Part shown: in pieces, positions 28,333-41,769 of the stretch
How the letters are laid out: every line of letters begins with the position of its first letter
How positions within the stretch are numbered: the stretch's first letter is position 1
Assembly: GCA_021234155.1 (NCBI GenBank)
Contig: JAJEKV010000114.1
Coordinates: 1,760,224-1,824,223 of the forward strand
Direction of reading: 5' to 3'
From: Isoetes taiwanensis
Taxonomy: Eukaryota > Streptophyta > Lycopodiopsida > Isoetales > Isoetaceae
DNA: 64,000 bases
The notes under the pieces: model-generated
Database searches by the model: none
Told to the model about the DNA's origin: nothing
What the model saw: only the letters and a program-made list of their open reading frames with translations
Position numbers and translations under genes: made by a program

Positions 28333-28505
28333 TGTTGGCCCCCGTAAGTGACAGATTAATGAAGGGGCCTCTAATGAGTTAAGATTTGGCTAACTTAAGA
28401 CATTACAGATTTGGCCAAGTGGCCTAAATGGCCATTCTATAAGCATATCCAGCTCTCACTTGGGACTAAATTGGCCCTAAAGTCGATACCACTCTAATTA
28501 GCAAA
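28333..28505 (+). mobile_element. Left part of a copia 5' LTR (split by insertion)
   Basis: TGTTGG at 28333 is the typical start of a copia LTR. It is followed by 170 bases that end exactly at the left inverted end of the 12-kb DNA transposon. The other part of the LTR would be 40527-40776, followed by a tRNA-Met-like primer site and the copia gag-pol frame. Joined, the LTR would be about 420 bp, a normal size for copia. The start is inferred from the TG dinucleotide and geometry; no second LTR is in the window for comparison. Confidence 0.45.
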
Positions 28506-28610
28506 GGGTGAAAGCATGTTGTAGTGGAACAAAAACGTGCATTTTAGCACCACATTTTTGGGTGCTAAGTGTGGTGGGAACTACCGAATTTGTAGTGGAG
28601 AGGGAGTTAT
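28506..28610 (+). repeat. Left terminal inverted repeat of the 12-kb transposon
   Basis: The first 26 bases are identical to the reverse complement of 40498-40523. Further in, TTTTTGGGTGCTAAGTGTGGTGGGA and ATTTGTAGTGG parallel the right end at the same depth. The inner part already contains the GTGGTG motif that recurs through the element. Confidence 0.85.
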
Positions 28611-28649
28611 TTTTTCAAAAATACACATGATTACTTATTCAAAATTTTG

Positions 28650-28800
28650 TCCTTTCAGCCTTATTCAAAGAACGCACACGATCATTTTCCCTCAAAACTC
28701 GGACACGCCCCTTAATCCGCAAGACCATTTCTCGATTCTGAATTTTCATTTTCCTCAAAAACTCGACACGCCCCTTAATCCGCCAAGACCATTTCTAATT
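28650..28800 (+). repeat. Short tandem duplication in the left arm
   Basis: CTCGGACACGCCCCTTAATCCGC-AAGACCATTTC is repeated about 60 bases later with small indels (around 28697-28730 and 28756-28792). It precedes the first ATG of the rightward gene and may be part of its leader. Confidence 0.5.
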
Positions 28801-28823
28801 TCCGCAAGAAGATCGATCACGAA

Positions 28824-29375
28824 ATGGCTCGATCATACCGGACTTGAATGCCACGATACACCTACAAGGAAATGTACAGCAAGAAAAGCATTACGCCACA
28901 CAAGAAGAAATCGAGTCCGTTTGGGGACCGAAAGTATTAGGAAAATCCACTTACAGTGGGTTGCATTCTAGATTCTGGGGATGCCCATGATTCTCTCGTT
29001 GTTTAGAATATTGTTTTGTTTCATCATGCAAAGTTGAAGAATCCGAAAGCAAGGAGAGGTATAATGAATATATGTGCCTTTACAAAAAATCACAAAGGTG
29101 AAGTGTGCCCTGGGAGGCATGGCCTCACAGACTATGGTCGCTATGCGATTACCTTCACACAAAAGGAAAAGAAATAAACCGGGTTGAGTTTCCGCAATAG
29201 CTTAAGAGAAAAGGGTCTCAAGACTCTCCGTCCCCAACGTAAGAGAAAGCATGCAAGCATTTCAAATAGTGTGGAAGCAGAGCAACCTCGCCACGATGAT
29301 GCTTCCTCTTGAAATGACTAGGCCACAATTCAAGCCTCCTCAAGTCGAAGAAGAATCTCGGGAAAATCACCAAAA
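28824..29375 (+). pseudogene. Proposed first exons of the rightward accessory gene
   Basis: From ATG 28824 fragments in shifting frames read MARSYRT, MPRYTYKEMYSKK, a basic stretch, then later GEVCPGRHGLTDYGRYAITFTQKEKK and RPQRKRKHASISNS (a likely nuclear localisation signal). The fragments are separated by stops and frame changes. Position mirrors the transposase at the other end, each about 300 bases from its TIR. I recognise no family. A DNA-binding accessory protein, as in many two-gene transposons, is a reasonable inference and nothing more. Confidence 0.3.
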
Positions 29376-29559
29376 AATAGGTACTTTTCAACCCTCTTCT
29401 TCCGAAACCACCATATGATGCAATTTAATATTGAACCGCTATTTTCCAAAGAAGGTCTAGCAAGCTTGAACAATCGTACACCACTTACTTCTTCATTTGG
29501 GTGTGTTGTGAGTTATGTGTAGGAAATTTGTGCCGCTAGTTTCGAAGTTGTGGTGGATA

Positions 29560-30125
29560 ATTTCAGTTCACAAAGAGTATGTAGCTCCAAATGTGTTACA
29601 GATGACGTCATATGGTGCCAATTATATGTTAATAATGTAGTTTGTAGCATATGTAGTGTCACATATAGTACCAAACAATGGTACCTTATCCGAATAGTGA
29701 ATTGGCTTCCATATGTTTCTATACTTAGTGTCATATGTGATGTTAGATATGGTGATACTTGTGAATGGTGGATTGTCCGCCATATGTGGTGCCAATCGCC
29801 GCCGCTTAAATATTGCACCACGCCATCCGCCACATATGGGGTGGTGGATGCCCCACCGGATGTGGTGCCTTCTTTGCATTGTGGTGCCACATGTGGTGTT
29901 TAATGTGGCACCACTATGGATCTCATTTTGCACCACATGTGGTGTCTTTGACGCCATTTGTGGTGCGGCAATGGATTGCCATATGTGGTGCCTTGGGTGC
30001 ATTAGGGTGCCATAGGTGGTGGGCACCAGCTTGTGTGGCACACCACATGTGGTGAATATGACGCCACATGCCACACCACATGTGGTGAATATGACGCCAT
30101 TTGTGGTGCAAAGTTTGTCATGATG
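29560..30125. repeat. Cluster of ACATGTGGTG / CACCACATGTGGTG motifs
   Basis: TGTGGTGC-type heptamers and the palindrome CACCACATGTGGTG are repeated many times on both strands, most densely at 29815-30115. Intervening words such as AATATGACGCCA recur too. The overlapping long ORFs on both strands here (for example 29622-30155 on the minus strand) are by-products of the repeat. The motif is the one found in the TIRs and in the other arrays of this element, so it may be a transposase-binding site. Confidence 0.75.
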
Positions 30126-30159
30126 GAATTTGAGGTGTGTAAAGTGGTGCCTCAAGTGT

Positions 30160-30273
30160 CATGTGGTACTAACCTTGATTACTTTCCGCTTGAATTCAAC
30201 AGACACCGAGAATGGATCAACTCTACAAGATCGGAAGTGATTCAAAGGTGTAAGGCAAGATCGGTGATTCAAA
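30160..30273 (+). CDS. Possible exon of the accessory gene
   Basis: The frame NLDYFPLEFNRHREW and on to a G|GTAAGT donor at 30273 is followed 100 bases later by a pyrimidine-rich acceptor TTCTCTTTGCAG at about 30374. The donor and acceptor are both strong. The exact frame is uncertain because of likely indels. It would join to the 30375-30510 exon. Confidence 0.35.
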
Positions 30274-30374
30274 GGTAAGTCCGCTTCGCCTCTTTGAGGT
30301 ACTTCATAACAAAATTCCCGGAAGTGCTTAGTATAATTGTATTCTCATTGACAAATTTGCATTCTCTTTGCAGG

Positions 30375-30510
30375 ATTTGCAATCACCGCTGCATTGAGAA
30401 TTGTTGTCATGAATTTTCTACAAAGATGGGTACAAGCCTTAGGTGTGAGTAGGGAGGATCAAAAGCAACTTCAAGCCACCGAGGCACTTACAGTGAGCAC
30501 TTATAGGTAG
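30375..30510 (+). CDS. Exon copy 1 with conserved 33-codon C-terminus
   Basis: After the TTTGCAG acceptor a frame reads FAITAALRIVVMNFLQRW, then VQALGVSREDQKQLQATEA and on to TAG at 30508-30510. The ATG within it (30409) and the stop are conserved in a second copy 650 bases downstream. The one difference inside the shared 33 codons that I noticed is synonymous (GCC/GCT). The peptide would be a short amphipathic helix-rich tail. The function is unknown. The duplicated form could be an alternative terminal exon. Confidence 0.4.
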
Positions 30511-30574
30511 CTTAGTTTACATGCTAAGGGCCCGATGTAAGGGACAGATGCCAATTAGAATTAGTGGACTTCCT

Positions 30575-31405
30575 AATCTTTCACCCGCTTAGTCTCTTCG
30601 CTTGTCCCCGCTTGATGTGTCTAATTTGCCCCTAGGATGAGGTCGCCACTCATTTTAGGTGGCTAATTAGATACATCAAGCAGAAACTCGAAATGAGAGT
30701 AAGCCCTCGCTTAGTCTCCTTCGCTTTCTCGCTTGTTGTATCTAATTTGCCCCTAGGATGACATCGCCACTGTGGCTTAATTAGATACATCAAGCAGAAA
30801 CTCAAAAAGGAGTAAGCCCGACATAAAAACAAGATCCCGGCCGGCTTAGTCTCTTTTGCTTCTCCCCGCTTTGTGTATCTAAAGTGCCGAATGCGGATTG
30901 TCAATGCAAATACCAATACCATCTTCCATGTCCGCCAAATTTTTTGAGGTACTTCATAACAAAATTCCCCAAGTGTTTAGTATAATTGTATTCTCATTGA
31001 CAAATTTATGCTCTCTTTGCGGATTTGCAATCACCACATTGTATTGAGAATTGCTATCATGAATTTTCTACAAAGATGGGTACAAGCCTTAGGTGTGAGT
31101 AGGGAGGATCAAAAGCAACTTCAAGCTACCGAGGCACTTACAGTGAGCACTTATAGGTAGCTTAGTTTACATGCTAAGGGGCATGATGTAAGGGATGATA
31201 CATCAAGCAGAAACTCGAAAAAGAGAGTAAGCCCGGCTTAGTCTCCTTCGCTTTCTCGCTTATGTATCTAATTTGCCCCCCTAGGATGACATCGCCACTG
31301 TGGCGCATTAGATACATCAAGCAGAAAACTCAAAAGGAGTAAGCCATAAAACAAGATCCCGGGCGGGGCTTAGTCTCTTTGCTTCTCCCCGCTTTGTGTA
31401 TCTAA
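30575..31405. repeat. Foldback repeats of about 85-110 bp, four to five copies
   Basis: The unit begins TTAGATACATCAAGCAG and ends GCTT-TGTATCTAA, with inner arms AAACTC..GAGAGTAAGCC and GGCTTAGTCTC..TTTCTCGCTT. It is therefore a near-complete imperfect palindrome able to form one long hairpin. Copies lie at about 30659-30750, 30778-30885, 31196-31275 and 31305-31403, with a half copy at 30578-30630. Most are preceded by CCCTAGGATGACATCGCCACTGTGG or followed by its start. The copies are diverged by small indels. A MITE family or an RNA hairpin array are both possible. Confidence 0.7.
30943..31200 (+). repeat. Second copy of a ~250-bp block containing the exon
   Basis: This block repeats 30291-30545: GAGGTACTTCATAACAAAATTCC, then TAGTATAATTGTATTCTC, the acceptor region, the exon and GGTAGCTTAGTTTACATGCTAAGG. 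In this copy the acceptor reads TTTGCGG instead of TTTGCAG, so splicing there may be lost, and a TGA sits upstream of the conserved ATG at 31059. The ORF from that ATG to TAG at 31158-31160 remains open and of equal length. Confidence 0.75.
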
Positions 31406-31631
31406 AGTGCCAAGTCAAGTCAAGCCCGTGAGGGTGCTCCAACCGACAACAATCCGCATCGCCAGATGCATTAAGTCATGCTCCACACCAATCCGCCAAA
31501 TCGCCAGATGCATCGTGTTGTGATCCTAACAAATCGCTTGGTGAATGTAAGTCACAAGGTAACTTCCAACCTTTTGTGCCTGGGTCTTCTTTTAATTTGA
31601 CCCATATAGTTACCGAATCCGCTAAATTTTT

Positions 31632-31957
31632 GCAGCCGGAAGTGTCTCGTAAAAAGCAAGAGCAGAATTCCAAGCAAAAGACACCTCCAAGACATTCAAG
31701 CATATATGTGTCTTGCTATATGTGTCTTTTGTAAAGCATGTTGTGGCTGCAAGAATAATGAGGCTTGGACATACTATCCCAATGCAAGGTGAGTTCAGAA
31801 TTTGAAGGTATTACTCATCCAATGTGAGGCCTCGATATGTTTGTTGCAGGTGTACCAATTTCTAGTTGCGAAATGCTGGACACGCCAAAGCAAATGATGA
31901 TTGATGTTGTGAAGCACAATTGTCGTAGTAATGAAGTCGAGGCTGATGATCAATAGA
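31632..31957 (+). CDS. Proposed last exons of the accessory gene
   Basis: An acceptor TTTTTGCAG near 31637 precedes the basic peptide PEVSRKKQEQNSKQKTPPRH. A second acceptor TTTGTTGCAG near 31849 precedes VPISSCEMLDTPKQMMIDVV and an acidic end VEADDQ with TAG at 31954-31956. A plant-like T-rich 3' region with TTGTAAT and ATTGTATAC phrases follows. Strand, splice signals and end suit a gene running from about 28.8 to 32.0 kb. No family is recognised. Confidence 0.4.
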
Positions 31958-32179
31958 TCTTTACTTGTAATCACATGTTTGTATTATTGTAACCAAAGAG
32001 GTTATTCTTGTAACCTATTCTTTCATTGACACTCTAATGTACATTGTTGTATACTATTGTATACAATAGACTTTTTCCGGCTGACCGTGAGCAACACTGG
32101 GGGAGTTCAAATCTCCGTAAGAAATTGATGTATTCAAAGATTCATGACAATGTGGTGTTACATGTCGGATAGATGTGGT

Positions 32180-32880
32180 GATGCAAATGGTGCATGTGGT
32201 GAATCATGTGGTGCGCTTTGGTGAACCATGTGGTGAATCAAGTGGTGAATCATAGGTGGCATGTCGGAGCTTACGCGGCATGTTGGAGCCTAGGTGGCAT
32301 GTTTGAGCCACCTTGGCATGTTTGAGCCTAGGTGGCATATTTGAGCCACCTTGGCATGCTTGAGCCTTTACATGACCTTTGTTACATGTTTGACTTTCAT
32401 TGACCAACATGTTTGGTGATGCAAATGGTGCATGTGGTGAATCATGTGGTGCATTTGGTGAATCATGTGGTGAATCATAGGTGGCATGTTGGAGCTTACG
32501 TGGCATGTTGGAGCCTAGGTGGCATGTTTGAGCCACCTTGGCATGTTGGAGCCTAGGTGGCATTTTTGAGCCACCTTGGCATGCTTGAGCCTTTACATGA
32601 CCTTTTGTTACATGTTTGACTTCCATTGACCAACATGTTTGGTGATGCAAATGGTGCATGTGGTGGATCATGTGGTGCATTTGGTGAATCATGTGGTGAA
32701 TCATGTGGTGAATCATAGGTGGCATGTTGGAGCTTACGTGGCATGTTGGAGCCTAGGTGGCATGTTTGAGCCACCTTGGCATGTTGGAGCCTAGGTGGCA
32801 TGTTTGACCCACCTTGGCATGTTGGAGCCTAGGTGGCATGCTTTCGGTCTATGTGGCATGCTTGACCCTTTACTGTGGCA
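32180..32880 (+). repeat. Tandem array, three units of about 226-238 bp
   Basis: The phrase GATGCAAATGGTGCATGTGG starts units at 32180, 32418 and 32644. Each unit contains runs of GAATCATGTGGT, followed by alternating GCATGTTGGAGCCTAGGTG and GCATGTTTGAGCCACCTTG words, so there is a second, shorter period of about 19-38 bases. The array encodes Met/His-rich open frames on the minus strand that I regard as by-products. It contains the element-wide TGTGGTG motif. Confidence 0.85.
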
Positions 32881-32894
32881 TGTTGGAGCCTAGG

Positions 32895-33370
32895 TGGCAT
32901 GCATGCAAACGCCCCTTCTCCTCTTCTCGCCTCATTCCCAAAATCGTATGGATGCCTACGATTTGCATCCCTTTTATTCCCAAAATTCCGCCCCGCAGCC
33001 TTCATTCCGCCCCCATCGCCTATTCCGCCATCTCCTTCACTCCTTCCCCATTCCGCCCATCTCCTTCACTTCCGCCATGGCCAAGTTCAAGACTACACTC
33101 CGCAGAACACTATCCCGCCATTGTGCTCGCTCCTTCGCAAAAAGACGGTCGAACCGTGGCTTCCCTCAAGGAGGATCCGTGGTCTTCCTCCACCGCAGGA
33201 GGCCGCCTTGCAACAGGTTGTTCACCCACCGCAGGTGGAGAAGCTCATCATGGATCATCAAGTTGTCGCGCCGCTGCGGGTGCTCGAGTGGGTGCATGCA
33301 AAGTTATGATGACGAGGGAGCGACTCCTAAATGAAGATGTATGCCTCGCGAGGACGACCTCCATATAGAG
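32895..33370 (+). other. Three overlapping open frames after the tandem array
   Basis: All three plus frames are open for 140-180 codons (ending 33309, 33334, 33368), which usually means biased composition, here C-rich sequence on the plus strand. The frame from ATG 33079 is very basic (MAKFKTTLRRTLSRH); the frame ending at 33309 contains VEKLIMDHQVVAPLRVLEWV and looks most protein-like. No domain is recognised. One of them may be a captured gene fragment, but I cannot choose. Confidence 0.3.
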
Positions 33371-33399
33371 CCCAAGATGGCCCCTCACCGACATTAGTT

Positions 33400-35120
33400 T
33401 AGATTTGTATTGTAATCCCCGGTTTCAATTTTTTTTGGCAATAGTCCTTGTGACTATTCTTTGTAAAGGCTTTTCATTAATGATGTAACTTGTTTTGCAA
33501 TAGTCCTTGTTTTGCAATAGAACTTGTTTTGCTTTTAACTGTTTCTCCGAGTTTCCACTCGTTTTTCGCTTAGCTGAACTTTTTGTCATTAATTATAAAA
33601 TGCAAACAAGGAATTTGAAGGTGCGTAATCTATGATCCGCACACTAACAAAATATGGTAACCAAATTTCAAAGAAATAGGAAAATATGAGATGGGTGGCT
33701 CGGGTTCAAAAAGAAATAGAAGCAAAAGAAAGAAAGAATTCCCAAGCAAAAGTTAGTGGCCTTGCAAGAATCTTTTGCACAAAGCGTAGCTCAATGAATT
33801 TTGGCCTCATATCAATTCAGGACCTAATTTGGGATCCATATATTGCTATCACCAAAATCACCAAGATACTATCAGAATCCCGAGAGCCATTCCATTTTCC
33901 TCCGGGTCAAAAATGGTCAATGCCCCGGGCCGATTATGGTGAAATCTGTGGTGAAAGTCGTGGTGAAAAAATGTGGTGAAAACCGTGGTGAAGCCGTGGT
34001 GATGCAAACGTTGTTTTATATTTCAAAGGGAGAAAATACATATGGAAATCTACCACACCCGGTGAGAATAGTTCATACTTTTATGAAATGAAGTATGCGA
34101 AAAATCGTGGAAAACTATAACCCCGAGCTTCTAGTATTATCAAAATGCAATAGAGATATAATAATAGCGCTTTGAAGAGGTTAATGATGACATACAGCAT
34201 CGGGCCTCAATCGATCCTCGCATTGTGAGATCCAGAACTCTTCTTCTTCCAAGTATGTCCAAGATTTCATCAAGTTTTTCTCACTGAATAGTTGGTGAAA
34301 TCCAAAGAACACTAAAACATGAGCTTCTCGCTTCCCCCCACTTATGATACAGATTCACAAAGTATTGTCTCAGTTGTTGTGTTCCATGCACCGGCTGTTG
34401 AGCACTTTTTTAATGGTGAAGCATGGATCATTTCCTGCTTTAGTTCGATGAACATATCCTCTTCCTCAAGCATGGGGAGAGCTGCAACTCATCCTCGAAT
34501 CATACGCCACCCCTGTAAACCCCCCGCTGGCCGCACCAGCTCAAGTAAGTCTCCCCGACCGCATCCGTAAAACAACATCATTAGTAATAAGAAAGGCAAC
34601 CGCCTTATCAACGCTTTGGCTTCTAATTCTTAAGCCCATCGAATTAACCTATGTTTTAAGCCTAGAATACCTCTAATGCATGGGTCCTCCGCCTCCTCTA
34701 ATATCCGCCTGCTCCTCGGGTTTATTTGCTCCAAAGATAGGTCTTACCAGATGCGACGCATTTGAACCCAAGGCGAAATTGTTTGTGCCCGCGTTTCTCA
34801 TTCTCGCTTTCTTCCGCCATAGCCGGATTCGATAAGCCAATGTCCGCATGCAAAACTAGATTTAGGGTTTCCTCCAATCTTTCCCGCAACCCAAAGATTT
34901 TTGAATGATTGAACTTGCATTTGATGTGACAGATTTCCAAAGGGTGGGTTTCATCATGTGTTTCTCTATCCCATTCCGCTCATCCTTAATGTAATTTTTC
35001 TCAGGTCACTTTCACCCTCACAATTAAACAAGAAAGATTGAAGAGTGAAGATTTATATTAAACATATAAAATGATTACATAAGGTTACATTTCAGATTAT
35101 ATACACTTGTTTTCATTCCC
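33400..35120. other. Transposon interior, unassigned frames and a GTGGTGA run
   Basis: At 33936-34005 the plus strand repeats GTGGTGAAA-type words about six times, another patch of the element-wide motif. The plus frame 33686-33979 and minus frame 34722-34940 (containing FGLRERLEETLNLVLHADI) are protein-like but unassigned. The rest shows no gene. Confidence 0.4.
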
Positions 35121-35130
35121 CGTGGGTCTA

Positions 35131-35954
35131 TCAAAAGAGATCTGGGTCCAAAGCCTCCTCGCCATCTTCTATGATCACCGATCGCTGGCCACACCCTGTC
35201 AGCTTCCCAAAATTATTTGCTCCCATTCTAGAGGGAAAGCAAAACCATAATGGTAGAGTGTTACCAAACGTAATAGCAGCTTTCCATGTCCATCCCGCAA
35301 GGCCTTGTGATGATAGTACATATCCCCAAGTGAAGGAATTGGTCCTCAGAAACAACCTATCATAACAAAAGAGGAACCTGCTTAGCGTAAAGGCTTGGTA
35401 GCCATTAAGCGTAAAAGGTCTCAACCTTTGCGCATCCTGGTCAATAGTATGAGGAACGGGCCAAAGATGCTGGTGTGTAAAAATTTCAGTGGAGGCAGAG
35501 TAAGTTGAGAGGTCTGGGAGCTGTGGTGTACAATTCAACCTCTTGGTGAGAGTTTTCAGCATTTCTGTGGTCATATTCTCATCCGGTGAATAGAGTAATT
35601 TCTCTATCCTGAGCATGTCCATCCATTCTGCATGGCTGAAAATCGGACAAAGACGCCTAGGTATTATGGGCTCTTCTTCTCTCGTCACATTGTCCCATTC
35701 CGCACTCCATCGCTTTTGCAAAGATCCAAGAGGTGAAGTTGGGCATGTTCGCTGTAGTAGCCGCCGTAGTCCGTGAAACCGTAAACCGCTTCCCCACCCA
35801 CCAGAAAAACCAGAAATCGCTTCCCAAGGACCTCGCCGTTTAAAACCGTCAGCCTCCCGAACCGCCAGAATAAATCAGAAACTCGGGTCGGGAGCAAGAA
35901 GAATGGCATCTCGCCTTTTGGGTTGCCCGAGGTCATTAATTTTCGCCATCCCAT
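35131..35954 (-). CDS. Unidentified ORF pair inside the transposon
   Basis: The frame 35131-35721 is open for 196 codons, the longest intact frame inside the element that is not made of repeats. It begins near KRWSAEWDNVTREEEPIIPRR and ends with an acidic DGEEALDPDLF tail, as real C-termini often do. An overlapping upstream frame (35685-35954) in a different register may be its N-terminal part, so one frameshift or an intron is likely. It is rich in Trp, Leu and Pro with no visible catalytic motif, signal peptide or repeat. It could be cargo captured from the host or a third transposon gene. Confidence 0.4.
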
Positions 35955-36121
35955 AATGATTTTTTCGCACGGCTGTCACACCAAAGGATGATGAAGGAAT
36001 TGATGGGATCGAGACAATTTAAGGAAAAGGAAAGTATTTCAAGAGAAAAGCCGCTCGTATGGATCTATCCGTGTCGGAGAAGAGAGATGAAAAGTGAAAC
36101 ACGCAGGTGAAACATAGTGAA

Positions 36122-36172
36122 CATATGTCACCACATGTGGTGAAACACATGTGGTGAAACATGTGGTGAACC
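36122..36172. repeat. CACATGTGGTGAAA short repeat
   Basis: Four near-identical CATGTGGTGAAAC words, including one CACCACATGTGGTG palindrome, occur within 50 bases. This is another patch of the element-wide motif, between the two gene blocks. Confidence 0.7.
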
Positions 36173-36487
36173 CGGGGCATGTTACATCAGGGACATCAAA
36201 ATACAATTACATATTACATCAGAAGCAAACATATTACATTGAAACAAGGGACATCAAAATACAATTGAGCATGGAATTGAGTTTCTTATATTATTCCCAA
36301 ACAAGGCAAGACACAACAACATATTCAAAATTTCTGAATCATTTCCTAACCTGTAAGAATGTGTTCAACTATTCTTCATCAGACATTAGAGGTAATTTGA
36401 GATCTCCTTTTGTCCCCATAAGAATCCTCCAATAGAATGAGTACTCTACATCAAACCGCAATTAATGCAAAGATAATAACTTCATTA

Positions 36488-36785
36488 CTGTCGTTTTTTC
36501 CCTATAACTTTTGATCTACTCATGAAAATGTTGCGGCGTTTGTTGCATTAGATGCAGAATGAAAAGATCTTTCAAGTGATATATGGTTATGATGTATTTC
36601 AATACAAATCATATATGTTAACCTTAAAAAATATGGTTTTTTGCTCTTTTCTTATATATTTACATCCCAAAAGATATAACAATGGGTTGTCATTAGAAAG
36701 ATCTTGAGGAGACGTAATCCATTACTACAAAATCGTTCGAATCGAAGTTTTTGATCAAAAGTTATAGTAGAAAGATGACACCGCA
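36488..36785. repeat. Inverted repeat of about 100-bp arms
   Basis: TATAACTTTTGATC near 36502 pairs with GATCAAAAGTTATAG near 36753, and AAAGATCTTTC near 36566 pairs with GAAAGATCTTG near 36697. Similarity between arms is patchy but ordered, giving a foldback of roughly 300 bases. The interior is AT-rich. It may be a MITE inserted in the larger transposon. Confidence 0.5.
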
Positions 36786-37059
36786 AAAGTTAGTTAGAAC
36801 TGCATTACACTATCACGCCACATAATACCGGAATAAAATACAATCGGAGCTCTTCTCTTATTGGACAGCTTTAAAAAGTCGATGTGGCTTTTTAAGCATC
36901 CCTTAATGGGACAAAATGAGATCTCAAATTACCTCTAATGCATGCTATCTTCATCGATAAAACCCCTCGCAAGTTTTCTAGAATCTTTTCCTCATCCGCC
37001 TGTCTAGCCTCAGAAACAGCCGAGCACCTTTCTTGATCTGCTGCATGGGAACTCGAATA

Positions 37060-40000
37060 GCACAAATTTGAGTAGAGAATACAAGTGACTTTGGCCGCTT
37101 GTCAACAACTCATACATCACCTTGACCGAGGCTTCTTTCTATAGTAAATGCCTCCACAACGGTTTCACCTCTCATAAACAAGTTTCCGCTCGCTTGAAGT
37201 CATTTTCAACTTCAAATTTTGGCTTGGTGCATAGCAACATCCAAAATACGTAATCCTCCTCGCTCCCTTTAGGTGCAGAAACGCAGCTGCTCCCTTCTCT
37301 AAGTGCTTCCGCAAGTACATTTGCCAAGGTTGAGTATAGTGGCCTGTAGACTTGGCGGTCTCTTCCACATCCGCATGAACATTGGAGGATGGTTCAACGA
37401 CTACAAGGTCCCATTCATCTACATACAATTCGTTCTCACACATGTCCCATTTTCCATCCAAACAATTGTCGCAAAAACATGATAGCTTTACGGTATGTAG
37501 CCAGTGTTGGATTTCCCCGCTTTCAATCCATGGACTGAATGAATTTGCCCGTTTCCGAATTGTCTCTCTGCACCCCAAGCCTTTTTCCCCGTTGATATCC
37601 TCGTGTTTTATTTCCCGTAAGTATCTCCTCGAACTTTTCTTCCATTTTCACCCACTCAGATGTACCACATTGAAATTGTTTCTCCGCAATTTTCACCACA
37701 TCATGGGCATTATCTAGTTTAATGTCGATGTTTAAGTCGAGACCTCGTATCCATCTTTTCAATTCTGGCCGCCTTCCCATCATGTTCACCTTTTCCATGG
37801 TTTGATCCAAAGAAGTTCCACATCATGTTGACCTCCTCGTATCACAACCGTACCTTCCAACAAAAATAAAATGATCCGCCGCTTTGAATTGTGATGCGCC
37901 ACTATCCGAAAATACATAGTGCTGTTTGGGGACATTGCCTTTCTGCTTTAAGTACTCAAAATGTTTCATAAAACAATGTTGAACAAAAAGAGTGTCATGT
38001 TCCCTATCATCCGACACATAGTAGTGTGTTTCCTTCTCAATGGTGTCTGTCTGTGGATCAACCCGATAGGTTATTTGAACAAATATAGTTATCTGGTTGT
38101 TGACCCAGCAAGCATGGACCTAACTTCATTCTCGCTCCTTAAAAGTATAATTCTCTGCGAAGTCAACCACGGATAGGTAAGCATCTCCAGGCAAGTTATC
38201 AAGGAGTTCTTTGTACTGGCCTGCCTGCCACTTATATCTGAAGTTGTGTAAAGGAAAATTTGGAAGCTTCTCCAACATTTTGTTCACCAGTGGAAGACTT
38301 GCAATTTCATTGTGTTGGTGAAACGAGCTTAGACTTCTTGCGCCATCTCCGAATACAGCTTTTTTTTCATAGTCTAGGTATTCCCACTTCACCATGCCAC
38401 TATCACTAGATTGTTCATGTGGGCGTATAGGGAACTTCTTAATCCCACACTCTTTACACTCACCCGTAATGCATTCCCTCTTATGGTAAGGTTGGAAGCT
38501 AGTTTTCTCACATAAAATTCCCCGCCATGCACTTTGTGCTACTTATTTTGTATTCGGGCGCCCAGATTCACCATATATATGTCCTCCTGCAAAGCTGACA
38601 AGTGCAACTACGCTTTTTGGGTGCTTAGTTCTCATACTATTGAAGCCATCTATTAGCATCTGCATTCTAACATGGTATATACAAGCAAAGAACTATTGAA
38701 GTCCTTTAATTTTACAACAAACCATGGTTTCAGCTTTTCAAACATCCTCCTTTGATCATAACACTAGGATGTTCCGCCTTGAATTTCCTGAACAATTGCA
38801 ACTGCAAGGAAGATAACAAGGTGATCAAAGATATTTATTGCACACTACATTTTCCACCACACTAGGCACCACATAGCATATATATATTATGTATATTCAT
38901 CTTACACCTCCTTATTCACCACACTAGGCACCACAACGCGCATATATTACATAATTTATTGTACACCATATTTTTCACCACACTAGGCACCACATAGCAT
39001 ATATTACATATATTCATCTTACACCTCCGTTATTCACCACACTAGGCACCACATAGAATATATTACAAGATTCATTTTACACCATATTTTTCACCACACT
39101 AGGGCACCACACTAGGCACCACACTCGGGCACCACACACGGCACCATACTAGGCACCACACTAGACACCACACTAGGCACCACACCATGTTATTCACCAC
39201 ACTAGGGACCACATAGCATATATTACAAAGATTTATTTTACACCATGTTATTCACCACACTAGGCACCACATAGCATATATTACAAAGATGTATTTTAAA
39301 ACCATGTTATTCACCACACTAGGCACCACAAAGCATATATTGACAAAGATTTATTTCACACCACGTGCCTCACCACAAAGAACCACATATCACAAGCAAT
39401 CACTAACCACATATCACATACCACATTAACAATAAAAATGTGGTGAAGATGAAGAAATGAAATAACCCTGTGATTCTTCCGAGATAGTGAGGGCATGATC
39501 CTCTCTTTACATTTCGCTCCAATCTTCAACTTAACATCCTTTGCATTTGAGAGACCCTACTGCTTTCGGTCCAAAATTGCCGCACAAGTTCTATGACGTA
39601 ATTGGGAATTGCATCCGCTCTTCTAACTCTTTTGTACAAAACCCATTTCCCCTTTGCAATCTATCTCTTCCCTCTTCAATTTTGCTTTGGTAAGATTCCT
39701 AGGATGAACACCCAGCCAGCTTACCAAAACCCCGAGCAAAGATCGATAGGATTAGCACTTTCTGATTAATGCTTCCTCTTACGGCCATAGCAAGGCAACT
39801 ACTCTTGGCGCTAAACCGTCATTGCTGTTAGACTTCTTCACAAGTTGAATGGAAGCCCCGAGGTTGTTTTTCCACAATGCTCTTGGCTTGCAAATCTTTC
39901 ACTCTTCGCCAAGTCTGGTCCATTGTGTCATCCCCAGATAATCTAGTAAAACCTCTTTCTTATCATTTGTTAGACAAGCCTTTAGTGGTGCTATGAAATG

Positions 40001-40215
40001 AAGATAACAATTTTAATACCATCCGACGCCTAGTAGAGGCCGCTCGTGGATCCTCCTCCGCTGATGCAATTTTTGCTAATTCTTCTTTAGCTTCCCTTTG
40101 TCTTTTCCTTTGGCGCCTTTTATGATCCCGTTCTTGTTCCGGAGTTCTCTTTCTCTTACCAGGTGCTCCGGTTTGAGATTTTAGGCAGATTTGCTTCCAA
40201 ATTAAATGATTGAAG
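37060..40215 (-). pseudogene. Transposase-like protein, decayed, of the 12-kb transposon
   Basis: Read leftward, fragments give: a basic N-terminus (KRKRTPEQERDHKRRQRK, near 40160); blocks RKSR..AIPNYVIELV near 39610; a zinc-binding-type region with ACIYHVRMQMLIDG near 38670 and GECKECGIKKF near 38460; then an open core. The core has VDFAENYTFK (Asp codon 38162-38164), ITIFVQITYR, SDDREHD, a long helix, YVFSDSGASQFK (Asp codon 37904-37906) and SNHGKGEHDGKAARIE near 37790, which supplies a Glu. This D...D...E order, with DFAENY and HGKGxHDG, matches a transposase-like family I recall from seed-free plants and some animals but cannot name with certainty. The C-terminus has CFCDNCLDGKWDMC near 37450. 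Multiple frameshifts separate the pieces; an intron holding the 60-bp array likely splits N-terminus and core. Confidence 0.65.
38856..39440. repeat. Tandem array with ~60-bp unit, CACCACACTAGGCACCACA
   Basis: Seven to eight long units share TTCACCACACTAGGCACCAC, AGCATATATTAC, then AAGATTTATTTTACACCAT. In the middle (39090-39190) the short word CACCACACTAGG is repeated without the spacer. It lies between the N-terminal and central transposase fragments and is free of open frames, so an intron is the likely setting. The CACCACA word is the reverse complement of the TGTGGTG motif elsewhere in the element. Confidence 0.85.
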
Positions 40216-40429
40216 GTATGAACCGGATTGATCCACAACCGGATTAAAGCGCCATAGCCGCAAAGCCGTGAAAGGCGCGTGGGTCGTGGGTTTAGAAATC
40301 GGGTTCCGTGGAGATTGGAATGGGACCGGGTGGCGAGGAAATTGGAATGGGACCGGGTATGAGGAATTGGGTTGTTGCGGTTCAAGAAATGATTGAATCC
40401 GCAAGGCATATGCACTAGGCCAAAACAAA

Positions 40430-40523
40430 CATTTAAAATCGCACCACAAATTTGATATCTCCCACCACATTTTTAGGGGGACAGGGGACACCTGTGGTGT
40501 TCCACTACAACATGCTTTCACCC
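40430..40523 (-). repeat. Right terminal inverted repeat of the 12-kb transposon
   Basis: The outer 26 bases are the exact inverse of the left end. Inside them CACCTGTGGTGTTCC, CCCACCACATTTTTAGG and CACCACAAATTTG give further GTGGTG motifs at depths like those of the left end. The AAA at 40524-40526 matches the AAA before the left end. Confidence 0.85.
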
Positions 40524-40526
40524 AAA

Positions 40527-40776
40527 CATCTAATTGGCCATTCTAACGTCGTAATAGGGTAATAAAGTGCCATGAAATGGCTAATCTGCGTAGTTTGTAG
40601 GTAAGGCATCCTATTCAAACCGTCAGTCGCATTTTGCCCGAATGTGTAATTTGTGGCCAAAATGACCCCAGGGAACCACTAAAATTTTTGCTGCCACTGG
40701 CTTATCTAGCCGGTCAGGATATGTTGCAGTGAATCGCTGGTTGAGTTGTTGGTGTTGCAAGATAGGAGGTTCATCA
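40527..40776 (+). mobile_element. Right part of the copia 5' LTR
   Basis: This 250-base segment lies between the DNA transposon and the copia primer site and ends in CA one base before it. It is too short and lacks a TG start, which supports the view that its beginning lies on the other side of the transposon at 28333. Confidence 0.45.
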
Positions 40777-40777
40777 G

Positions 40778-40789
40778 TGGTATCCGATC
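40778..40789 (+). promoter_or_regulatory. Copia primer-binding site (tRNA-Met-like)
   Basis: TGGTATCCGATC differs at a few positions from TGGTATCAGAGC, the complement of the initiator tRNA-Met 3' end used by most plant copia elements. It sits one base after a CA and 128 bases before the gag-pol frame, as expected. Confidence 0.6.
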
Positions 40790-40917
40790 TTATTGAAGAT
40801 TTAACTCACACTCAAGGCTTTCAGGTATTCTATATTTGAAAATTTTAGAGTGAGGCTAAGAAACTTTGAAGTTGATTTTGTTTACTGGATTTATTGGAGT
40901 TGAAATCTTGAAGTAGT

Positions 40918-41631
40918 ATGGCATCTAATTATGGAGTATGTTATTATTGTCATGAAGCTGGACATAAAAAAATTAATTGTCCAAAATTGAAAGAGATATT
41001 CTGTTATAATTGCGGAGGATTGGGACATACCTTCGTTAGATGCTCTAATCCTAAAAAAATTGAACAATATGGACGTCAATCATCAAGGGGTATTGATATA
41101 GCTCAAAAAATGGATGCAGAACAGAATTTTGAGAAGCAAGAAGATAATCAAGCGGTAAAATCATATATTTTGTCAACTTATGAGATTAATGAATGCTTTT
41201 TTAATCATAAGGTTGATGAATTCATAATTGACAGCGGTGCTGAACGATTAGTAGTTAACTCCGCTAAGTTTTTGACTAATGTTTGTCCCAGTAAATTCAT
41301 GAGCCATGTGCAGTTGGGAAATGGAGACTTGCAGGAAGTAACTGGCAAAGGAATGTTGCAGTTATTTGATCTCCATGGGAATAGCGTTGATGTTGGTAAT
41401 GTTTTGTGTGTTCCGGGTTTGCACAAAAATTTGATTTCCGTCTGTCAATTAGTTGATTTGGGATATGAATTAAGGTTTGACAAAAAGGTTTGGGTTTTGC
41501 TTGATGGTGAATTGAAGTTTCTTGCAAAGCGAGTTGGCAATCTGTTTGAGTTCCCAAATAATGACTTGGAAAGTGTGAATGTGTTGGAAGTCACTAAATC
41601 CTCAACATGGCACAATAGGCTTGCTCATACG
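40918..41631 (+). pseudogene. Truncated copia polyprotein: zinc knuckles, protease, GAG-pre-integrase
   Basis: The frame starts at ATG 40918. Two CCHC zinc knuckles come first: CYYCHEAGHKKINC (residues 7-20) and CYNCGGLGHTFVRC (residues 29-42). They bind the element's RNA. Around residue 102 FIIDSGAERLV is the aspartic protease active site (DSGA), which would cut the polyprotein. Near residue 236 TWHNRLAH is the start of the GAG-pre-integrase motif (normally LWHxRLGH). The frame ends abruptly there because a gypsy-type LTR begins at 41632; ten further codons are LTR sequence. The N-terminal capsid part of gag is also missing upstream, since only about 130 bases separate the primer site from the knuckles. 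Integrase, reverse transcriptase and RNase H are not in the window. Confidence 0.9.
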
Positions 41632-41769
41632 TGTGACGTTCCAAAGACAATATACGCCCCGTGACGATATTGTATCGCCACGCCACGCCATTACACGCCA
41701 CCCCGATTGGCGTGTACCCAACGATAAAATAAGTGGGTAGCCCCTAGGGGGCAACTTGCTAAGAATGTG

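Follow-up and report, generated by a model that had tools for sequence, protein, structure and literature searches.

The stretch of DNA considered here, referred to as the window, covers 64,000 nucleotides of the Isoetes taiwanensis genome (C924:1760224-1824223, where C-numbers denote genome pieces) and contains a genuine DNA transposon copy at positions 28506-40523. Taken as a whole, this region is in all likelihood the degraded remnant of a large DNA transposon of the cut-and-paste type, belonging to a lineage whose subfamilies here, three or more in number, have a common end sequence and duplication length. A transposase gene and a second, oppositely transcribed gene face inward from the two ends, and the characters of the element favour, with some reserve, a place in the Sola superfamily.

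The copy is delimited by perfect inverted ends of 26 bp each, at 28506-28531 and 40498-40523, and the window holds no other match to this 26-mer with up to five substitutions tolerated. Two coding blocks on opposite strands each start ~0.35 kb inside their own end: the plus-strand block is the second gene, of which traces remain at 28877-29415, and the minus-strand block is the transposase. The original prediction, made from the sequence of the window, had proposed the perfect repeats, the two oppositely facing gene blocks and a single mobile unit with intact ends. All three are borne out, the last of them by many sharp-ended copies and by empty sites elsewhere in the genome.

The genome searched comprises 1,658,258,908 bases in 1110 pieces. 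The genome-wide search for the exact 26-mer that had been called for returned 659 places (330 forward, 329 reverse), compared with 0 and 0 for the reversed control. Searches with the first 195 bp and the last 200 bp of the element gave 569 and 458 first-look candidates, respectively, and the best 40 scored in each all start at base 1; in copies with unrelated flanks, similarity stops where the element ends. Neither an absence of other copies nor similarity running beyond the ends, which the prediction had named as grounds against itself, was found. Among 100 of the 659 places, from which neighbouring pairs were drawn in pieces with at least two such places, 27 of 32 same-contig end pairs are oriented inward; 11 of these 27 are spaced 9.1-11.0 kb apart and none is shorter than 9 kb, the range in which short derivatives would fall. 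Ten copies were fetched at 20 kb each (labels of the form L0xx denote fetched genomic copies of the window family), with the right end within reach in six; two fetched copies are shorter, at 7.5 and 7.7 kb. In the alignment rows shown, most of L009, L011 and L013 follows the order of the window at 90-92%, interrupted by internal gaps, and L015 and L017 are more rearranged. Pairwise identity among the left ends of the ten copies and the window is 90-97%, and among the ten left ends the ratio of gap events to mismatches is 0.27. The genome assembly is described in an excerpt of PMC8566536 as Nanopore-based and polished; such an assembly may have added indels, and some broken frames may be assembly errors.

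A perfect 4-bp duplication flanks 12 of the 13 other copies with both ends in a first set, the exception being L019, which has no duplication and differs in the last base of its right end. The same was seen in 18 of 20 further end pairs, of which one of the remaining two has 3 bp and the other none, giving 30 of 33 window-family pairs besides the window itself. The 20 further pairs and three of the first set make up 23 of the 27 inward pairs; the other four span 36-61 kb. The duplicated words vary, with 27 different ones among the 30, and A or T occupies position 2 in 24 of the 30 and position 3 in 23. In the window, the left flank finishes with AAA and the right flank starts with AAA, as the original prediction had noted. 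The letters are present, but as a duplication they fall short of the true 4-bp word, CAAA, and the constant 3-bp duplication expected in aligned copies was not found.

This reading of the window comes from a second copy, C1037:14933403-14944908, which has the window's flanks, sits at the same target position in the same orientation, and carries a duplication that reads CAAA/CAAA. In the alignment, the first C of CAAA, adjoining a run of Cs, is missing from the right flank in the window, and because the C1037 copy at the same site reads CAAA/CAAA, the window is one C short. The flanks of the two copies agree at 94% over 1.5 kb on the left, 91.5% over the next 4 kb to the left and 98% over 1.1 kb on the right. 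The insertion lies inside a host repeat, and a search with the joined flanks returned 404 first-look candidates, the best 40 of which, as scored, all span the junction at 89-91%. The empty sites sought were found: eight of eight fetched are uninterrupted, each with a single CAAA. Elsewhere, L041/L042 (C1040) and L085/L086 (C46) represent two insertions of the family ~7 bp apart in what seems to be the same Copia-type coding repeat, a spacing that hints at target preference or chance.

The features of the window copy and its surroundings are as follows.
28506-40523, unstranded: whole transposon copy, 12,018 bp, with sharp ends common to many copies.
28506-28531, plus strand: left terminal inverted repeat, 26 bp, perfect.
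40498-40523, minus strand: right terminal inverted repeat, 26 bp, perfect.
28502-28505, plus strand: left target site duplication CAAA, identified from the copy at C1037 and eight empty sites.
40524-40526, plus strand: right target site duplication, AAA in the window, the first C of CAAA missing.
28877-29415, plus strand: second-gene remains, N-terminal region, homologous to the subfamily-2 gene.
30884-30949, plus strand: possible RING-like trace of the second gene, weak (expectation value, E, 0.083).
29506-30505, plus strand: left subterminal region, in which TGTGGT occurs 12 times (elsewhere than in the element, 0.25 per kb).
38831-39377, plus strand: right subterminal array of CACCACA units, inverted relative to the left array.
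32193-32901, unstranded: internal minisatellite arrays with 12-, 19- and 38-bp units.
35134-35694, minus strand: orfX, an additional open reading frame, present in L009, L013, L021 and L023.
36384-36945, unstranded: nested insertion of ~555 bp with 23-bp perfect inverted ends, absent in L009 and L013.
36940-38800 (approximate limits), minus strand: broken second exon region of the transposase, comprising a zinc-binding part, the D-D-D core and a C-terminal part.
39481-40190 (approximate limits), minus strand: transposase first exon region (basic N-terminus), broken.
40524-41631, plus strand: host repeat right of the insertion, continuing the repeat left of 28505.

The nested insertion sits within the element at the 3' end of the transposase gene. 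The reading frame orfX lies on the transposase strand and is kept in four other copies, without a clear family; the minisatellite repeats of the window appear as open reading frames in other copies. Copia-type zinc knuckles were recognized in the right flank, at 40912-41664, by reading of the sequence.

The window's transposase is broken by frameshifts and by 11 stops; the window copy, as assembled, is therefore unable to make full transposase. Members of this transposase family exist in plants, streptophyte algae and animals. Pfam returned no family above cut-off for the transposase pieces, for homologues including P0001, or for seven distant homologues; NCBIfam returned no match for P0001, five motif strings of the family had no match in literature text, and neither the transposase sequence nor a profile retrieved anything useful from the PDB. 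No relative was confirmed among 16 pattern matches in viral_contigs and seven in genome_contigs. The predicted model of a relative displays an RNase-H-like core, nearest to retroviral integrases among the chains compared. Residues D222, D305 and D346 (P0001 numbering) are kept in 29, 30 and 31 of 31 aligned homologues, respectively, and lie in the model where such residues are expected, at strand ends and at the beginning of a helix, forming the probable catalytic D-D-D triad. Two animal homologues, P0051 and P0060, have long C-terminal extensions, and P0060 shows a weak OTU protease match (E 0.033) below cut-off.

A genome search with the transposase yielded 11,913 first-look candidates, of which the best 71 were scored; the longer matches among these range from 47% to 79% identity, and two are stop-free and full-length (C928:1080308-1082143 and C1033:1677491-1679332). 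The latter belongs to a 9771-bp element, C1033:1675681-1685451, which defines subfamily 2. It ends in GGGTTAAAGCATGC and GGGTCAAAGCACAA, has AAAA on either side (a 4-bp duplication in the one element of one), and carries an open upstream exon, with the second gene on the opposite strand; by exon reading its transposase would have ~850 residues. Around the C928 transposase, no inverted-end pair was recognized within 18 kb. Its open frame spans 626 residues with a Gypsy-type polyprotein on its left, upstream, and may represent either an element that was truncated or a gene that was domesticated. Subfamily 3 is defined by the end GGGTAAAAGCACGCTGTGGTGT, found 184 times forward and 190 times in reverse, with a control of 0. 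Of its pairs, drawn from the listed places and fetched in part, nine of ten have a perfect 4-bp duplication; the copies C1081 and C1045 show one end each in the pieces fetched. Ends of the form GGGTNAAAGC and the 4-bp duplication are common to the window family (subfamily 1) and subfamilies 2 and 3.

The subfamilies differ in their subterminal repeats. The window copy and six others have an excess of TGTGGT inward of the left end and of ACCACA inward of the right end, at 13-15 and 23-29 per 2.2 kb, against a maximum of 6 in 200 block shuffles per end. Subfamily 2 is without this enrichment, and the motifs are therefore not general to the lineage; in the subfamily-3 pieces both motifs are frequent and the opposite sense prevails at the ends seen. 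As judged from sequence, the inverted arrangement suits transposase binding sites, but the middle of the window copy also has 19 TGTGGT, which weighs otherwise.

The transposase is accompanied by a second gene that has a NIF/FCP1-phosphatase-like part, joined by a RING-like part in subfamilies 1 and 2. These two subfamilies also have the N-terminal part of the gene in conserved form. The next part matches BRE1 (6.9e-6) and RING-H2 (2.1e-4) in subfamily 2 (C1033), both below the Pfam cut-offs, and a RING-like stretch stands at the corresponding place in L017 and L027, with fragments in other copies. The NIF phosphatase domain exceeds the Pfam cut-off in subfamily 1 (L027, 24 versus 21.8 bits) and is strong in the subfamily-3 copy C1081 (59.5 bits, E 4.3e-16), whose NIF part also matches UBLCP1 in the PDB at 1.2e-4. 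In subfamily 2 it was seen by similarity, C928 matching L027, L017 and L025 at E 4e-25 to 1e-7, and only the first piece of the NIF-like part is shown in this way for C1033. Subfamilies 1 and 2 agree in the order of the N-terminal, RING-like and NIF-like parts. With ELDGV in subfamily 2 and DFNGV at C1081 as the first catalytic motif, phosphatase activity is doubtful; the domain may bind without cleaving. The fullest versions of an Ulp1-like stretch (HW..YHFDSL..CGP) are those of L017, L025 and L027. End fragments of it occur in L009, L011, L013, L015, L021 and L023, and none was found by similarity in C928 or C1033. This part has no Pfam match and one weak PDB match, to an Ulp1-like protease (E 0.57). 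The window copy itself has no match to the NIF or Ulp1-like queries.

The association of the two genes extends across diverged copies. The NIF query gave 2,506 first-look candidates in the genome, and 150 of 186 matches were listed and counted. A listed match lies within 12 kb of at least 14 of the 71 transposase loci, compared with 0.15 expected under uniform placement, an assumption that may not hold where repeats are nested, as in this genome. Of these 14 neighbours, 13 are on the opposite strand and 12 lie downstream, tail to tail, nine of the latter at 0.97-1.42 kb; among the ten subfamily-3 pairs, a listed NIF match falls inside at least two (C346:317248-330392 and C907:44351212-44361338). 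A literature search on NLI interacting factor and transposons gave nothing relevant among the matches listed.

The little-studied Sola superfamily, with its groups Sola1-3, is said to have been described by Bao and colleagues in 2009. In the available excerpts, Sola elements have a D-D-D transposase and 4-bp duplications, are usually 2-9 kb long but in some cases exceed 15 kb, have inverted ends of 11-1124 bp, and are present in Physcomitrella and uncommon in flowering plants (PMC10741241); a Sola2 transposase has 888 residues and makes 4-bp duplications (PMC3627910), and the superfamily is also treated in excerpts of PMC4455052 and PMC9033089. The present family has 4-bp duplications in all three subfamilies, a D-D-D transposase by conservation and model, elements of 12.0 and 9.8 kb with 26-bp perfect ends, and relatives in non-flowering plants and animals, all of which resemble Sola as excerpted, including its several-kilobase length and variable-length inverted ends. 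The combination of D-D-D triad and 4-bp duplication fits the Sola superfamily, a known group, where the original prediction had suspected a possibly poorly described one. The partner gene with NIF-phosphatase-like and RING-like parts is unlike Sola as described in those excerpts. By comparison with these descriptions the element behaves as Sola does, and membership is likely, if by a modest measure. It is rather unlikely that the family, which occurs in plants, streptophyte algae and animals and has neither a name nor a Pfam model, represents an undescribed superfamily: the missing Pfam and NCBIfam matches and the motif strings absent from the literature would fit, but absence from Pfam says little when no Sola model is known there either, and the triad, duplication, size and non-flowering-plant occurrence match Sola in the excerpts of PMC10741241. 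An ordinary, already catalogued Sola element that captured its second gene by chance is unlikely. Sola is reported from the moss Physcomitrella with such a transposase and duplication, in the same excerpts, and the second gene matches one protein only outside this genome; NIF-like matches nevertheless lie tail to tail with transposases of 47-75% identity to the query, and this placement, together with the constant order of parts, argues for more than a single capture.

Other superfamilies fare worse, and it is very improbable that drifted ends conceal a CACTA, Harbinger, Ginger, hAT, Mutator or Tc1 element; Pfam matched none of the transposase or integrase families in question. CACTA/EnSpm elements are large plant elements with subterminal repeat arrays, which the window copy resembles, and PIF/Harbinger elements are two-gene DNA transposons with a 3-bp TWA duplication. 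The ends here are GGGTGAAAGC rather than CACTA/CACTG, the duplication is 4 bp and variable rather than a TWA triplet, and no CACTA or Harbinger transposase was matched in Pfam, in agreement with the original prediction, which had set both aside. Ginger1 and Ginger2 share the 4-bp duplication and an integrase-like fold, and Ginger1 transposases can carry Ulp1 protease domains; according to the excerpts of PMC2836005, Ginger1 has CCGG/CCGT duplications, TGTNR ends and a Gypsy-integrase-like transposase sequence, in contrast to the variable duplication, the GGGTNAAAGC ends of three subfamilies and the lack of a Pfam integrase match here. The TTAA duplication of Kolobok and piggyBac does not fit either, with no TTAA among the 30 duplications (27 words) and one among nine in subfamily 3. 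That the two 26-bp ends pair by chance or stem from two elements has a practically negligible probability, ruled out by the inward orientation of 27 of 32 pairs, colinear interiors and duplications.

Several observations nevertheless weigh against a transposon of the kind proposed. Three of 33 window-family pairs and one of ten subfamily-3 pairs lack a perfect 4-bp duplication. The C1037 element is nearer to L013 and L011 (both ends) and L021 (left end) than to the window element with which it shares a site, a mismatch for which gene conversion or repeated insertion at one site is possible. The triad is based on conservation and predicted secondary structure, without residue-level superposition, and the best Foldseek matches in the PDB are NurA nucleases with TM-scores of about 0.1, followed by RNase-H-fold proteins such as Argonaute and endonuclease V and by the IS621 recombinase, with poor superposition; chains of RAG1/2 score no better than E 0.09. 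Sola is said in an excerpt of PMC10741241 to occur in bacteria, and no transposase relative was confirmed in a bacterial and archaeal collection. For the second gene, the RING-like scores are below their cut-offs, Pfam finds no NIF in the subfamily-2 pieces, and the composite matches a single protein outside this genome, a grass NIF protein; the gene is therefore not seen beyond this genome.

In the mechanism we propose for this transposon, the transposase would bind the inverted ends GGGTGAAAGC and, in the window subfamily, the inverted TGTGGTG arrays just inside them. The D-D-D triad (D222, D305, D346 of P0001) would cut the DNA, and insertion would follow with a stagger of 4 bp, the two central bases of the target being A or T somewhat more often. 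The second, oppositely transcribed gene probably regulates the transposase or host factors. A bolder version, which we regard as doubtful, is an undescribed two-gene superfamily of an age to span streptophytes and animals at the transposase level. Its lineage in this genome would have retained a multi-domain regulator (a putative RING-like zinc finger and FCP1/NIF-type phosphatase fold, with an Ulp1-like protease part in some copies) as the transposase's standing partner, and the element would transpose by manipulating ubiquitin/SUMO or phosphorylation signalling of the host.

Although widespread, the transposase family has no Pfam model, and such elements are therefore likely to be missed or left unclassified in plant genomes; the GGGTNAAAGC ends, the 4-bp duplication and the D-D-D signature make the family searchable, and the open transposase of subfamily 2 offers material for activity tests. 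Of greatest interest is the phosphatase-like partner gene: if it is kept across diverged subfamilies, it would provide a testable case of a transposon with its own host-signalling regulator.

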